Positions 6,032 to 39,412 of a stretch of DNA of 64,000 bases are shown piece by piece. The notes under the pieces are model-generated. The model was not told where the DNA came from and ran no database searches. It saw nothing but the letters and a program-made list of their open reading frames with translations. Every line of letters starts with the position of its first letter. The first letter of the stretch is position 1. The translations under genes were made by a program, and so were the position numbers. The stretch is from Petrotoga mobilis SJ95 (GTDB lineage: Bacteria; Thermotogota; Thermotogae; Petrotogales; Petrotogaceae): positions 248,001-312,000 of the forward strand of contig NC_010003.1 of assembly GCF_000018605.1 (NCBI RefSeq), in the 5' to 3' direction.

Positions 6032-8059
6032 ATGGTGAACAATATTGATATTTCAAATGCAATGTCCATTAAGTTGGATGATGAACTCCCTCCTATGCCC
6101 AAATTCATCGAAGGCATAAGAAGGGCACCTAAAAGACCTTTAAACTTATCAAAAAGAGAAGTAGAACTAGCCCTTGCAAACGCCTTAAGGTACGTGCCGG
6201 AAAATTTGCATGAAAAATTGGCTCCAGAATTTCTGCAAGAGTTGCTTACTCGAGGTAGAATTTATGGATACAGGTATAGGCCTGAGGGCAACATTAAGGC
6301 AAAACCTATAGATATGTACAAGGGTAAATGTACTGAAGGAAAGGCATTTCAGGTCATGATCGACAACAACTTGGATTTCGATGTTGCTTTGTATCCTTAT
6401 GAACTGGTAACCTACGGTGAAACCGGTCAAGTATGTCAAAATTGGATGCAGTACAGATTGATTAAAAAGTACCTAGAAGAACTAACAAGGGAACAAACTT
6501 TAGTTGTGGCTTCAGGACATCCCCTTGGCTTGTTCAGATCAACACCAAATAGTCCACGAGTGATAATAACAAACGCTTTGATGGTTGGGATGTTTGATGA
6601 CCAAGAACATTGGATCAAGGCACAAGCTATGGGTGTTGCCAACTACGGGCAAATGACTGCGGGAGGTTGGATGTATATAGGACCTCAAGGTATCGTTCAT
6701 GGCACTTACAATACCTTGTTGAACGCTGGAAGGTTGAAATTAGGGATACCACAAGATAGTGATCTAAGAGGACGTTTATTTGTTAGTTCAGGTTTAGGTG
6801 GAATGAGCGGTGCTCAAGCTAAAGCGATAGAAATCGCAAGAGGCGTTGGAATAATTGCAGAAGTGGATTATTCGAGAATACAAACAAGACTAAACCAAGG
6901 TTGGTTAAAAACCTACAGCAAAGATTTGGACGAAGTTTTTGAAATAGCCTTCGATCATCTGAATAGAAAAGAACCCATTTCCATCGGTTATTATGGTAAT
7001 ATTGTAGATCTATTGGAATACATTGTAAAGAAAGGTATAAAGGTAGATTTGCTATCAGATCAGACGTCTTGTCACGCTGCCTACGAGGGAGGGTACTGCC
7101 CGCAAGGCTTGACTCATGAAGAGAAGAATCACCTCTTAGAAACAAATAAAGAGAGATTTGTTGAATTAGTCAACAATTCATTGAGAAGACATTTCGAGCT
7201 TATAAAAACAATGGTTGAAAGGGGAACCTACTTTTTTGACTATGGGAATAGTTTCATGAAGGCGATTTTTGATGCAGGAGTGAAAGAAATAGCAAAAAAT
7301 GGGTTGGATGAAAGCGAAGGGTTCATATTTCCCTCGTATGTGGAAGATATAATGGGGCCATTAATATTCGACTATGGTTATGGACCTTTCAGGTGGGTAT
7401 GTTTAAGTGGAAAACGGGAAGATCTATTGAAAACGGATAAAGCAGCGATGGAATGCATAGATCCCAACAGAAGGGGTCAGGATAGAGATAACTACATATG
7501 GATTAGAGATGCAGATAAAAACAATCTTGTTGTTGGTACTCAAGCACGAATTCTTTATCAGGATGCTATGGGCAGGATGAAGATAGCCCTTAAATTCAAC
7601 GAAATGGTTAGAAAAGGGGAAGTTGGCCCCATTATGCTTGGAAGGGATCATCACGATGCAGGCGGAGCTGACTCTCCTTTTAGAGAAACAGCGAATATAA
7701 AAGATGGGAGTAATATAATGGCGGATATGGCAACCCATGATTTCGCTGGAAATATAGCAAGGGGAATGAGTTTGGTAACACTGCACAACGGAGGTGGAGT
7801 TGGTATCGGTAAGGCCATTAACGGTGGCTTTGGCTTGGTTCTGGATGGAAGTGAAAGGGTGGATGAAATAATAAAGAACGCAATTCCATGGGATGTTATG
7901 GTTGGTGTCGCCAGGCGATCATGGGCTAGGAATGAAGCTTCTATAGAAACATCCATAGAGTACAACAAAGAAAACAAAAATACAGACCACATAACTTTAC
8001 CGTACATTGCTGATGAAAATATGGTAAAAGATTTAGTTGATAAATATTATCAGGGTTAG
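6032..8059 (+). CDS. hutU: Urocanate hydratase
   Basis: Second step: urocanate plus water to 4-imidazolone-5-propionate, using tightly bound NAD+. At 675 residues it is the long urocanase form seen in some anaerobes; the classical form is about 555. Recognisable are the YGETGQVCQNWMQY segment, GGWMYIGPQGIVHGT, the Gly-rich SSGLGGMSGAQAKA nucleotide loop, DQTSCHAAYEGGYCP, and the GPIMLGRDHHDAGG active-site region near the C terminus. It begins 17 bases after hutH with AAGGAG upstream of ATG. Confidence 0.96.
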   Translation: MVNNIDISNAMSIKLDDELPPMPKFIEGIRRAPKRPLNLSKREVELALANALRYVPENLHEKLAPEFLQELLTRGRIYGYRYRPEGNIKAKPIDMYKGKCTEGKAFQVMIDNNLDFDVALYPYELVTYGETGQVCQNWMQYRLIKKYLEELTREQTLVVASGHPLGLFRSTPNSPRVIITNALMVGMFDDQEHWIKAQAMGVANYGQMTAGGWMYIGPQGIVHGTYNTLLNAGRLKLGIPQDSDLRGRLFVSSGLGGMSGAQAKAIEIARGVGIIAEVDYSRIQTRLNQGWLKTYSKDLDEVFEIAFDHLNRKEPISIGYYGNIVDLLEYIVKKGIKVDLLSDQTSCHAAYEGGYCPQGLTHEEKNHLLETNKERFVELVNNSLRRHFELIKTMVERGTYFFDYGNSFMKAIFDAGVKEIAKNGLDESEGFIFPSYVEDIMGPLIFDYGYGPFRWVCLSGKREDLLKTDKAAMECIDPNRRGQDRDNYIWIRDADKNNLVVGTQARILYQDAMGRMKIALKFNEMVRKGEVGPIMLGRDHHDAGGADSPFRETANIKDGSNIMADMATHDFAGNIARGMSLVTLHNGGGVGIGKAINGGFGLVLDGSERVDEIIKNAIPWDVMVGVARRSWARNEASIETSIEYNKENKNTDHITLPYIADENMVKDLVDKYYQG

Positions 8060-31232: not shown

Positions 31233-31480
31233 GTGAACTACTTATCTCTAAAGAGGTAAGCTTCCTAATTCAGCGACCGTTGCGAAACATCCTAGAATGA
31301 ATCTAAGGGTGCTCGACTTACACAGTCTCCAAAGGCTTTACTTTCCCCAGTCCCTGGGGTAGAGTCAGTTTATACAGTGACTAGCTGTTTCCTTATCTGC
31401 CGTAAGGCAGTGTTGCAAATGCCTGTTTTAATCCAAACTGCCTAATGTTAACGGCAGCATTTATATCTCTATCATGTTTA
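31233..31480 (-). ncRNA. Predicted omega RNA (reRNA) of TnpB
   Basis: The 3' end of tnpB and the 160 bases after it are rich in hairpins on the minus strand: CTGCC/GGCAG at the tnpB end, CCCCAG-TCC-CTGGGG (31345-31359), and the terminal hairpin 31241-31260. In this family the guide RNA scaffold overlaps the tnpB end and stops at the right end, so the guide would be the flank 31232 downward, beginning AATGCAACTATTTTGC. The upstream limit is inferred. Confidence 0.6.
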
Positions 31481-32541
31481 GTTCCACATTCAGGACATAC
31501 CCATTCTCTATCAGAAAGTTTTAAACCTGCGTTCTTATACCCACATACACTACAAGTTTTAGACGAAGGTTCGAACGTTCCTATCTCGATTACTTTCTTA
31601 CCTAGTCTTTCTGCTTTGTATTTTAGGAACGTCTTGAATTTGTACCATCCTAAATCTGAGATACTTTTAGCTAAGTGATGATTCTTTAACATGCCTCTTA
31701 TGTTGAGAGTTTCTACAACAAAGACATCAGCTTGGTTCTCACTGATTTCTTTTGTTAGTTTATGTAGAAAATCCTCTCGTGTATTTTTTATTTTCTCATG
31801 TATTCTAGCAACTTCTAATTTTGCTTTGTCCCAATTCTTTGACCTTTGTTCTTTGCTTGAAAACTTTTTATATGCATGTTTTAGTTTTCTTTCGTATTTA
31901 GACAAAACTTTAGGAGCTTGATACTTTGTTCCATCGGATAGTACCACACAATCTTTCAATCCCATATCCATACCGATTGAGTTCTCATAGTCTATATCTC
32001 TTTCAGGGTAAGAACCTTCTACTTGGAATGTTATAGAGACAAAGTACTTACCTGTTGGAGTTTTAATGAAAGTACAATTTTTTATCTTTGCATTTGGATC
32101 TATTTTCCGATGGACTCTTACTTTGATACCTTCTTTAAACTTTGGCACGAATAGAATTCCATATTTATCGTTATTCTCATTTTCATATAACTGTATATGT
32201 TGAGGAACTCTAAAAGATTGTCTACTTGATTTTTTCTTAAATTTGGGGTATTTACTTTGTTTCTTGAAGAAACGTTTGAATCCAGTTTCTAAGTTCTTTA
32301 TGGACTGTTGTAATGATTGAGAGTTGACATCATTCAACCATCGATACTTCTCTGTCTTTTTAAGAACCGTAAGCACTTTAGCCCACATATAATAATTAGT
32401 ATACGTTTTAGTATTCTTATATGCCTTGTTAGCAAACTCTAAGAATAGGTTGTAAACAAATCGAGTATGTCCAAAATGTTGGCTAAATTTCTCAATTTGT
32501 TCGTTAGTTGGATATATACGAAACTTGTATGTTTTAAGCAT
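31393..32541 (-). CDS. tnpB: TnpB RNA-guided nuclease of IS605-type element
   Basis: RuvC-type nuclease, ancestor-like to Cas12, guided by the RNA made from the element's right end. 382 residues from ATG 32541 (AAGGTGA six bases upstream). RuvC residues: Asp192 in GMDMGLKD, Glu277 in VVETLNIRGM, Asp in HDRDINAA (356-363); the zinc ribbon is CSVC (330-333) and CPEC (349-352). The N-terminal helix-turn-helix region (KTYKFRIYPTNEQIEKF) is complete. All catalytic parts are intact and there is no frameshift, so the nuclease may be active. Confidence 0.95.
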   Translation of the reverse strand: MLKTYKFRIYPTNEQIEKFSQHFGHTRFVYNLFLEFANKAYKNTKTYTNYYMWAKVLTVLKKTEKYRWLNDVNSQSLQQSIKNLETGFKRFFKKQSKYPKFKKKSSRQSFRVPQHIQLYENENNDKYGILFVPKFKEGIKVRVHRKIDPNAKIKNCTFIKTPTGKYFVSITFQVEGSYPERDIDYENSIGMDMGLKDCVVLSDGTKYQAPKVLSKYERKLKHAYKKFSSKEQRSKNWDKAKLEVARIHEKIKNTREDFLHKLTKEISENQADVFVVETLNIRGMLKNHHLAKSISDLGWYKFKTFLKYKAERLGKKVIEIGTFEPSSKTCSVCGYKNAGLKLSDREWVCPECGTKHDRDINAAVNIRQFGLKQAFATLPYGR

Positions 32542-32655
32542 ATTCAATCACCTTAATTCGATAATTGTATGATATAATACAATTGTATCACATATACATA
32601 TAATTAACAACATTTTTTGATTCAAATTCGTTTTGTGTTTGAAGCTAGCTATCAT

Positions 32656-32675: not shown

Positions 32676-32691
32676 TGTTCTCGTTGGATTT

Positions 32692-33193
32692 TCACAAAAT
32701 AGTAGAAAAGGGGATAGCCCTAGTTCCTGAAGGTAGACGTATTTTCCCTAATCTCACTGTTTTAGAAAACCTCCGATTAGGTTCGTATTCTCGCAAAGAC
32801 TCTGAAAAAATAAACGAAGATTTCGATTGGGTACTTACACTTTTCCCGCGATTAAAGGAAAGACTTAAGCAACTTGGGGGTACACTCTCTGGAGGGGAAC
32901 AACAAATGTTGGCGGTTGCAAGGGGGTTAATGTCAAGGCCAAAGGTTCTAATGCTCGACGAACCATCTCTGGGACTAGCTCCAATTCTAGTCAAAGAGGT
33001 TTTAGGAACTATAGAAAAAATAAGCCAACAGGGAGTAACTATATTGCTTATAGAGCAAAATGCTGTTGGTGCGTTAAAAATCGCTAATTATGGTTACGTC
33101 TTAGAAACTGGAAAAATTGTTCTTGAAGGTCCGGCAGAAGATCTCTTAGAAAACGATGAAGTTAGGAAAACTTATCTAGGAGTAACGGCTTAA
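32692..33193 (+). pseudogene. livF: livF fragment (C-terminal two thirds)
   Basis: Corresponds to residues 81-244 of the complete livF at 37813-38547 with about a dozen amino-acid differences in 164. It keeps the signature LSGGEQQMLAVARG and Walker B VLMLDEPS but lacks Walker A (residues 42-50 of the intact copy), so it cannot bind ATP normally. It begins at the IS left end. An open frame runs back into the IS to TTG 32633, without a ribosome site. No stop has yet appeared, so the truncation is fairly recent or the piece was kept open by chance. Confidence 0.92.
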
Positions 33194-33214
33194 AACCTTG
33201 AAACTATTTCATAC

Positions 33215-33344
33215 TTTTCAAGATTTCGAAGAAAGATATCAACAGTACAAGGATTTTCAAGATTTCCAAGATTTCCAAAGATACCAAAACTACCAAAGAT
33301 TCAACCAGCAAAGATACCAAGATTGTCCTTATTACGACGACTAA
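33215..33344 (+). pseudogene. Remnant of the Tyr/Gln-triplet protein gene (3' end)
   Basis: Codes for the last third of the triplet region of the protein at 38673-39302 (RYQQYKDFQDFQDFQRYQ... ending CPYYDD). The segment between the livF end and this piece is deleted by about 640 bases compared with the intact copy, probably by recombination between short CAAGATTTC-like repeats. Followed by the same terminator as the intact gene. Confidence 0.85.
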
Positions 33345-33361
33345 TTTAAACCAAATACTTT

Positions 33362-33389
33362 AAAAAGAGGCCTAAAGGCCTCTTTTTTA
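33362..33389 (+). terminator. Terminator copy of the duplicated unit
   Basis: AAAAAGAGGCC-TAAA-GGCCTCTTTTTT, the same core as the terminator at 39321-39347; it marks the right end of the decayed liv copy. Confidence 0.9.
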
Positions 33390-37816: not shown

Positions 37817-38547
37817 ACAGTGAAAATTCAAACATAATTCTTAAAATATCTGATATGAACGTTCACTATGGTGGTATCCATGCAGTAAAAGGAATCGATA
37901 TGGAAATCAAAAAGAATGAAATCACAACGTTGATTGGATCAAATGGAGCGGGAAAAACTACAACCTTGAACGGAATAATGAATGTAGTTAAAAAGAGCGG
38001 TGGAAAGGTGTTTTTAGATAATGTTGATATTACAAGCATGGAAACTCATAGAATGGTAGAAAAAGGAGTAGTTCTAGTCCCTGAAGGTAGACGTATATTC
38101 CCAAATCTAACGGTTTTAGAAAACCTCCGATTGGGTTCGTATTCTCGCAAAGACTCTGAAAAAATAAGCGAAGATTTCGATTGGGTACTTACACTTTTCC
38201 CACGATTAAAGGAAAGACTCAAGCAACTTGGAGGCACACTATCTGGGGGAGAACAACAAATGCTGGCGGTTGCAAGAGGGTTAATGTCAAGACCAAAGGT
38301 TCTAATGCTCGATGAACCTTCTCTTGGACTAGCTCCTATTCTAGTTAAAGAGGTTTTAGAAACTATAGAAAAAATATGTGAAGAGGGGGTAACCATACTG
38401 CTTGTAGAACAAAATGCCGTTGGTGCATTAAAAATCGCTCATTATGGTTATGTCTTAGAAACCGGCAAAATTGTTCTCGAAGGACCTGCAAAAGATCTCT
38501 TAGAAAACGATGAAGTTAGGAAAACTTATCTAGGAGTGACGGTTTAA
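37813..38547 (+). CDS. livF: Branched-chain amino acid ABC ATPase LivF
   Basis: Second ATPase, 244 residues. Walker A GSNGAGKTT (42-50), signature LSGGEQQMLAVARG, Walker B VLMLDEPSLGLAP and the switch region VEQNA. Overlaps the livG stop by four bases (ATGA), so translation is coupled. A truncated paralogue lies at 32692-33193, about 93 percent identical in the shared part, showing that the whole operon was once present twice. Confidence 0.97.
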   Translation: MNSENSNIILKISDMNVHYGGIHAVKGIDMEIKKNEITTLIGSNGAGKTTTLNGIMNVVKKSGGKVFLDNVDITSMETHRMVEKGVVLVPEGRRIFPNLTVLENLRLGSYSRKDSEKISEDFDWVLTLFPRLKERLKQLGGTLSGGEQQMLAVARGLMSRPKVLMLDEPSLGLAPILVKEVLETIEKICEEGVTILLVEQNAVGALKIAHYGYVLETGKIVLEGPAKDLLENDEVRKTYLGVTV

Positions 38548-38672
38548 AACTTTGAAACCACATCACACTTTCTTAAGCTTCTTCTAAGCTTCCATTAAGT
38601 GAACATTAAGCATATTGTTTTATTATTCTGATGTATCAAAAATAAAAAACATTACTTAGTGGAGGTGTTGGT

Positions 38673-39302
38673 ATGAAAAAAGTTTTTCTGTCTTTCTTTA
38701 TAGGTATTCTTTTAGTCGGATCGTTATTTGCACAAGTAGGACCAGCTGGTGGGGCTCCAATGTCCCAGGTACAAAGTCAAGACCGTGACAACCAGATGCT
38801 CCAAGTTCAGGAAAGATTGCAAGAAAGAGTATTATCTCAAGATGTTTCACCAGTAACCGTTACCGGAACTGTAAAAACCATAGTGGATGACGATGTATCT
38901 TTAACCTTGAGTGTTGAAGTAGACTCCGAAATTTACTCAGTAAGAGTACCAAAGAATCTTTTGAATGAAGTAAAAGCAGGCGAAAGTATTGAACTAACAG
39001 GATACAAGGTAGTAATAAACGACAACAAAAACTTTGTACCTTTAGAAATCAAATATCAAGATAGAATTGTGAATATGCAGAGATATATGGAAAATACTAG
39101 ATCTCAAATTTCCGAAAGATACCAAGAAAATTTCCCACAAAATCAAGATTATCAAAGATATAGAGACTACCAAAATTACCAAGATTTCAAAAGATATCAA
39201 CAGTACAAGAATTATCAAGACTACCAAGATTTTCAAAGATACCAAAACTACCAAAGATTCAATCAACAAAGATATCAAGATTGTCCCTATTACAACGACT
39301 AA
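38673..39302 (+). CDS. Secreted protein with Tyr/Gln triplet repeat tail
   Basis: 209 residues, not recognised as a known family. Signal peptide MKKVFLSFFIGILLVGSLFAQ; a central beta-rich segment (residues 60-128: VTVTGTVKTIVDDD, IYSVRVPKNLLNEVKAGESIELTGYKVV) that looks like a small OB or nucleic-acid/ligand-binding barrel. From Tyr160 to Phe196 every third residue is Tyr or Phe (13 in phase), with Gln, Arg, Lys, Asp or Asn between, then a DCPYYND end with one Cys. GGAGGTG precedes the ATG. It follows livF by 125 bases and was part of the duplicated liv unit (remnant at 33215), so it has long travelled with the transporter. Confidence 0.8.
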   Translation: MKKVFLSFFIGILLVGSLFAQVGPAGGAPMSQVQSQDRDNQMLQVQERLQERVLSQDVSPVTVTGTVKTIVDDDVSLTLSVEVDSEIYSVRVPKNLLNEVKAGESIELTGYKVVINDNKNFVPLEIKYQDRIVNMQRYMENTRSQISERYQENFPQNQDYQRYRDYQNYQDFKRYQQYKNYQDYQDFQRYQNYQRFNQQRYQDCPYYND

Positions 39303-39320: not shown

Positions 39321-39347
39321 AAAAGAGGCCTAAAGGCCTCTTTTTTT
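39321..39347 (+). terminator. Terminator of the liv / triplet-protein unit
   Basis: AAAAGAGGCC-TAAA-GGCCTCTTTTTTT, a strong intrinsic terminator; its duplicate is at 33362-33389. Confidence 0.93.
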
Positions 39348-39412
39348 ATACAAAGAAATAATTAACTTTATAATATTTTTCAAAAATTGAAAAAAACTTC
39401 AATATTTGGCTT

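Follow-up and report, generated by a model that had tools for sequence, protein, structure and literature searches.

The gene at 38673-39302 of the window (the whole 64,000-nucleotide stretch of Petrotoga mobilis SJ95 DNA that was analysed, corresponding to positions 248001-312000 of a single 2,169,548-base chromosome) encodes a protein that, judging from its signal sequence, is exported, and that bears behind a probable OB-fold domain a tail with an aromatic residue at every third position. Comparison of related tails gives good support to purifying selection acting on both the aromaticity and the phase of these residues, in Petrotoga and in one further genus. The features of the region are as follows:

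32691..33387, + strand: truncated duplicate, made of the 3' part of livF, the ladder tail and the terminator
38673..39302, + strand: gene of the putatively exported OB-fold protein with the aromatic-ladder tail (open reading frame of 209 amino acids, preceded by the strong ribosome site GGAGGTG)
38673..38732, + strand: signal peptide, residues 1-20, ending ...VGSLFA/Q (sequence reading)
38853..39050, + strand: probable OB-fold domain, residues ~61-126 (AlphaFold2 strands, Foldseek, PF01336)
39150..39266, + strand: aromatic ladder of 13 [YF]-x-x units, residues 160-198
39267..39299, + strand: non-periodic C-terminal end QRYQDCPYYND, including C204
39321..39350, + strand: intrinsic terminator, a GC-rich hairpin AAAAGAGGCC..GGCCTCTTTTTTT directly 3' of the gene (sequence reading)

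The protein comprises, in that order, the signal peptide, a Gln-rich linker, the beta domain and the tail. Its N-terminus reads as a typical signal peptide (MKKVFLSFFIGILLVGSLFA/Q) in which no lipobox was seen; across the family the F19 residue is invariant, and A20 and S17 are nearly so. Both the signal peptide and the small beta domain announced by the sequence-only reading are present, the latter as a probable OB-fold. The stop codon closes the non-periodic stretch 39267-39302, in which C204 (39282-39284) is the sole cysteine of the mature protein. A single cysteine lies four to five residues before the C-terminus in all six Petrotoga proteins, and several distant members with quite different tails (L300, L308, L309 and L311) have a cysteine two to five residues before the end (for example TCVYNAR and TCIYNAN, beside the DCPYYND of the window's own protein). 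From its place in these sequences, this near-terminal cysteine is a possible cross-link or anchor site, which is perhaps conserved. As for the 39321-39350 hairpin, the terminator scan reported it on the - strand only, and a T run is present on the + strand too.

Translation bore out the run of thirteen Tyr or Phe residues proposed earlier, at positions 160, 163, ..., 196, all in phase and unbroken (units YQR, YRD, YQN, YQD, FKR, YQQ, YKN, YQD, YQD, FQR, YQN, YQR and FNQ), while the longest in-phase run obtained by shuffling residues 151-209 was 10, reached twice in 200,000 shuffles. The window contains 12 runs of at least six TWY codons (mean in shuffles, 0.24), and TWY-based runs of at least nine in phase occur, genome-wide, in this gene alone. 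The ladder DNA is indeed a drifted 9-base repeat, as had been supposed: Tandem Repeats Finder reports a period-9 array with 58% matches, and the distinct 9-mer units are 12 of 13 in G000, 14 of 16 in L008 (a more distant Petrotoga) and 15 of 15 in L009 (genus g2, 47% protein identity). Adjacent units are 0.54-0.60 identical, versus 0.58-0.61 for non-adjacent ones; the first base of the aromatic codons is invariant across units, and the wobble base is near random in G000 and L009. Homogenisation at the DNA level is no explanation of the ladder, because nearly every unit is distinct and closeness along the array brings no greater likeness between units; a DNA-homogenised neutral microsatellite was rejected on the same grounds.

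The ladder is almost devoid of Gly and Pro, and the number of units varies by whole triplets (13, 15 or 16). In the 44 units of the three lineages, Phe occupies 11 of the ladder positions and Trp is absent from every unit; the second unit residue is Q (24), K (9), R (6), N (3) or E (2), and the third one is D (15), R (10), N (10), Q (6), K (2) or E (1). Asp therefore occurs 15 times at the third position and never at the second (Fisher p=1.4e-5), which does no more than hint at an oriented repeat, since position-specific spacers may be due to units descending from one another. The tails consist of 26-32% aromatic and 28-36% Gln/Asn residues, with mixed charge and 1-4% aliphatic residues; the net charge is -3 to +4 in Petrotoga (12-18% acidic residues) and +7 in L009.

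Across five Petrotoga sequences that are very close to one another, six amino-acid changes have occurred in the 26 spacer codons; in the 13 aromatic codons there are two synonymous changes and a single loss, from Tyr193 to Asn, common to L004 and L005. In L008, where synonymous sites are saturated or nearly so (domain dS about 1.1), 16 of 16 aromatics are in phase, as are 15 of 15 in L009. A neutral simulation started from the Petrotoga codons at d=1.1 retained on average 2.9 of the 13 aromatics, and all 13 in none of 4,000 runs. It is from this difference between 16/16 or 15/15 kept and a neutral expectation of about 3/13 that we conclude to selection on the phase, as the sequence-only reading had argued. 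The comparison of synonymous with nonsynonymous rates that it had put forward as a check agrees, with a tail dN of about 0.2 where dS is saturated, a value that is indicative only, the repeat alignment being ambiguous. Furthermore, G000 and L008 differ by four to six Tyr/Phe exchanges, depending on the alignment, and by zero losses, and a random amino-acid change at a Tyr or Phe codon yields the other aromatic with a probability of about 0.13-0.15 only. Such swapping without loss is the pattern expected if aromaticity, not the hydroxyl, is what matters, and it argues against roles in which given positions require the hydroxyl of tyrosine. Because Phe is found at a quarter of the positions, less weight was given to dityrosine cross-linking, tyrosine phosphorylation and metal binding.

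Relatives of the protein were found in 16 of the 38 genomes of the order, and the domain profile matches 34 of the 103 genomes of Thermotogota. All members that were read out have a signal-peptide-like start (with a conserved MKK beginning and ...FA cleavage region) and the domain, followed by a variable tail. No Pfam or NCBIfam family scored above its cut-off for the protein, and a PDB sequence search gave no convincing relative of it; on these sequence data, it belongs to a Thermotogota-wide family of putatively exported OB-fold proteins bearing no Pfam or NCBIfam name. The ladder occurs in Petrotoga and in genus g2 (L009). The sequence-only reading had named, as evidence that would speak against it, relatives in which the triplet phase is lost while the rest of the gene is kept, and these were found, at the genus level, in the sister genus g3, where the L010 tail is short and without a ladder and L011 has the vestige NYQKNWDYKNFQKKLKF. 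The domain tree groups L009 with g3 (87/80, not starred), so the common ancestor of Petrotoga, g2 and g3 probably already bore the ladder, which then decayed in the g3 lineage. The tails of the Marinitoga-like genus g5 are rich in Asn, Arg, Gly, Pro and aromatics (Phe and Tyr) with no period; they have a net charge of about +6 to +13 and FRG/RG motifs. In the more distant members that were read out, the tail appears rich in Asn, Arg, Gln and Gly; the tails inspected by eye in Thermotogaceae seem poor in aromatics. Since g3 lost the ladder, and the Marinitoga-like and distant members are without it, it is a lineage trait and not the core function of the family. A second, diverged paralogue occurs in Marinitoga-like genomes (L024 and L026), adjoining an IMP-dehydrogenase-like gene and bearing a Tyr/Pro/Asn-rich tail.

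In g2 and in the Petrotoga genomes with flanking sequence, livF is found on one side of the gene and a cluster of ferredoxin-like and FAD oxidase genes on the other (the L008 contig ends before the point where this cluster would begin); in g3 it adjoins the same ferredoxin-like and FAD oxidase genes, and the Marinitoga-like copies examined showed neither livF nor oxidase genes next to them. The gene had been supposed to have moved with the liv operon, leaving a remnant at 33215. What we found is conserved synteny, and the "remnant" is a duplicate in which a deletion has brought the 3' two thirds of livF (89% identity with 38045-38570) up to the end of the tail with its terminator hairpin (33218-33387, 87.6% identical). 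As read from these sequences, the 33215 copy is the product of local duplication and decay, not of gene movement. The duplicated tail reads FQDFEERYQQYKDFQDFQDFQRYQNYQRFNQQRYQDCPYYDD in frame (33216-33341), and is still open and in phase; a few new codons following livF have been fused to it. Its upstream FEERYQ resembles other Petrotoga genomes more than the intact gene of the window. A TnpB-like open reading frame of the IS200/IS605 type (31393-32547, - strand) lies directly upstream of the truncated livF duplicate, and may mark how the duplicate was cut. No second copy of the gene was found elsewhere in the other Petrotoga genomes searched, the second match in G034 being the same gene.

The beta domain (residues ~61-126) is probably an OB-fold. 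Of two single-sequence AlphaFold2 models, both of low confidence, one predicts strands at 61-72, 76-83, 86-93 and 105-112 and a short intervening helix (pLDDT 61-69 in residues 61-110), an order that fits the beta1-beta2-beta3-alpha-beta4-beta5 arrangement of OB-folds insofar as such a model can be read. The PDB structures ranked highest by Foldseek are OB proteins such as RPA14/32, Stn1-Ten1, CcmE and tRNA-synthetase anticodon domains; they count as support, not proof, given the weak model and the absence of any match better than E 0.001. The PF01336 profile (OB-fold nucleic acid binding domain) matches 4 of 21 family members, with a best E of 1.1e-4. In the tail, helices are modelled at 158-177 and 181-202, with pLDDT below 50 through most of it.

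Although several functions could be imagined for the ladder, we prefer, tentatively, the proposal that it is a disordered tail whose evenly spaced aromatic stickers engage in weak, multivalent contacts within the cell envelope. The protein would be exported to the periplasm or the outer sheath, and its C-terminal tail, presumably disordered and changing fast between lineages, would in Petrotoga and one neighbouring genus consist of even Tyr/Phe stickers separated by two polar spacers (Q/K/R, then D/N/R). Through many weak pi-pi and cation-pi contacts, the tail would bind its own copies or envelope polymers, while the OB domain would bind a separate ligand, so that the protein would be concentrated or cross-linked in the envelope. 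We favour these stickers because selection kept the rings, their even spacing and the polar spacers. That the hydroxyl, the exact spacers and the number of units are free to change fits a row of stickers (the principle is given in PMC9748015), and the other sticker chemistry of the Marinitoga-like tails fits a loose chemistry rather than a fixed geometry. The role would not be general for the family, since the g3 ladder decayed and the Thermotogaceae tails look aromatic-poor. Against it, the ladder is without the Gly/Ser richness of prion-like domains, and the position-specific spacers hint at more order than in a plain sticker-spacer chain. The same residues have also been weighed as an ordered fibre or helix motif (polyproline II, 3-10 or a helical bundle) with the rings on one face and stacked between chains. 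The exact period of 3.0 kept through 13 to 16 units, the spacer classes, the near absence of Gly and Pro and the two modelled helices would suit such a motif, but the low tail pLDDT, the variable unit number and the permissive spacers do not, nor does a period of 3.0 hold rings on one face of an alpha-helix, so that we regard it as quite improbable. Its boldest version, an extracellular zipper with three residues per turn from which a hitherto undescribed fibre or layer of the Petrotoga envelope would be built, is a long shot.

In carbohydrate-binding proteins, aromatic rings stack on sugars by CH-pi contacts assisted by hydrogen bonds; Trp is common at such sites, and the ligands of OB-folds include oligosaccharides in addition to nucleic acids. 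The ladder might hence be a strip binding a polymer (an envelope or environmental polysaccharide, or peptidoglycan), its rings stacking on the sugars, its Gln, Asn, Asp and Arg spacers forming the hydrogen bonds and the OB domain acting as a second site, as would suit an export signal and the tolerated Tyr/Phe exchanges. Yet no unit contains Trp, carbohydrate genes are not among the neighbours and no Pfam binding module matched, all of which leave this strip unlikely, though worth keeping in view. An exported binder of extracellular or periplasmic DNA or RNA, with an OB-fold and an Arg/aromatic tail like RGG-type or single-strand-binding proteins, is improbable. It would account for the predominance of nucleic-acid-binding OB proteins among the top fold matches, for the PF01336 hits and for the strongly basic Marinitoga-like tails and the +7 of L009; however, the fold matches come from a low-confidence model, the OB-fold is not specific for nucleic acids, and the Petrotoga tails are near neutral with a sizeable acidic content. 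Lastly, a functionless, neutral low-complexity expansion of the 9-base repeat is strongly disfavoured and very improbable. Even though the quasi-repeat itself, the loss or replacement of the tail in g3 and other genera and the in-phase Tyr to Asn change in two genomes speak for it, the simulation loses about 10 of the 13 aromatics at the observed synonymous distance, and the random wobble with an invariant first base, the equal likeness of near and far units and the low tail dN all run counter to it.

The sticker tail aside, the ladder shows, in a compact natural form, aromatic spacing that selection has preserved in a putatively exported bacterial protein, which probably implies that the tail is useful. 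As sister lineages have lost the ladder or bear another tail chemistry on the same OB domain, they form a comparative system for the role of even aromatic spacing outside the eukaryotic cell and at high temperature. The analysis also brings to light a nameless exported OB-fold family across Thermotogota.

Tails with Tyr at every third residue are not rare per se and are of a known kind. A DNA scan for Tyr ladders in 84,980 genomes gave at least 115 loci; among the matches listed, most are simple DNA repeats or Y-G-x/Y-P-x tails, and 6 of the 10 proteins checked have Wzz and/or AAA_31 domains (capsule-type tyrosine kinases or their domains). By its sequence, the Petrotoga ladder is set apart in being putatively exported and Gly-free, with interchangeable Tyr and Phe and charged or amide spacers. 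A ladder-like match in G037 (genus g8) was rejected as a palindromic DNA repeat in a different short open reading frame, outside the OB-fold family. At this locus (L313, G037:C80, ~7826-7917), both strands of an imperfect-palindromic 18-base repeat, TATCGTAGATACAGCTTG, encode Tyr at every third codon; an N-acetylmuramoyl-L-alanine-amidase-like open reading frame adjoins it. Searching the literature for a tyrosine repeated every three residues gave collagen-type and unrelated papers only.

To our knowledge, proteins of the BOF family have no aromatic tail. They (YgiW; SipA/VCA0732 of V. cholerae, PMC6370654) are, like the Petrotoga protein, small exported OB-fold proteins, but none of the 21 members of the Petrotoga-type family matched their profile (PF04076; Pfam E<=1 for the full length, E<=0.1 for the domain). 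The toga proteins OmpA1 and OmpB (PMC3387000) share with it the phylum Thermotogota and, presumably, the envelope, and differ in consisting of a porin and a coiled-coil anchor; the text of that article, as searched by terms, does not mention an OB-fold protein. The BY-kinase CpsD has a C-terminal tyrosine cluster with (YGX)4 repeats (PMC4574921), i.e., Tyr at every third residue as in the ladder, but BY-kinase tails are cytoplasmic, have Gly after Tyr and are phosphorylated, whereas the Petrotoga protein has a signal peptide, a Gly-free ladder and Tyr/Phe exchange. A tail of this type was rejected, as Pfam finds no Wzz/AAA_31 kinase domain in the protein and Phe at 11 of 44 positions makes Tyr replaceable. 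The proposed stickers resemble the prion-like domains of FUS and hnRNPA1, in which aromatics are uniformly distributed among polar residues and this patterning is conserved (PMC9748015). These domains are intracellular, eukaryotic and Gly/Ser-rich, with a spacing that is uniform only on average and an aromatic content of 15-20%, versus 26-32% in the Petrotoga-type tails; the ladder, too, is a polar chain with uniform aromatic stickers.
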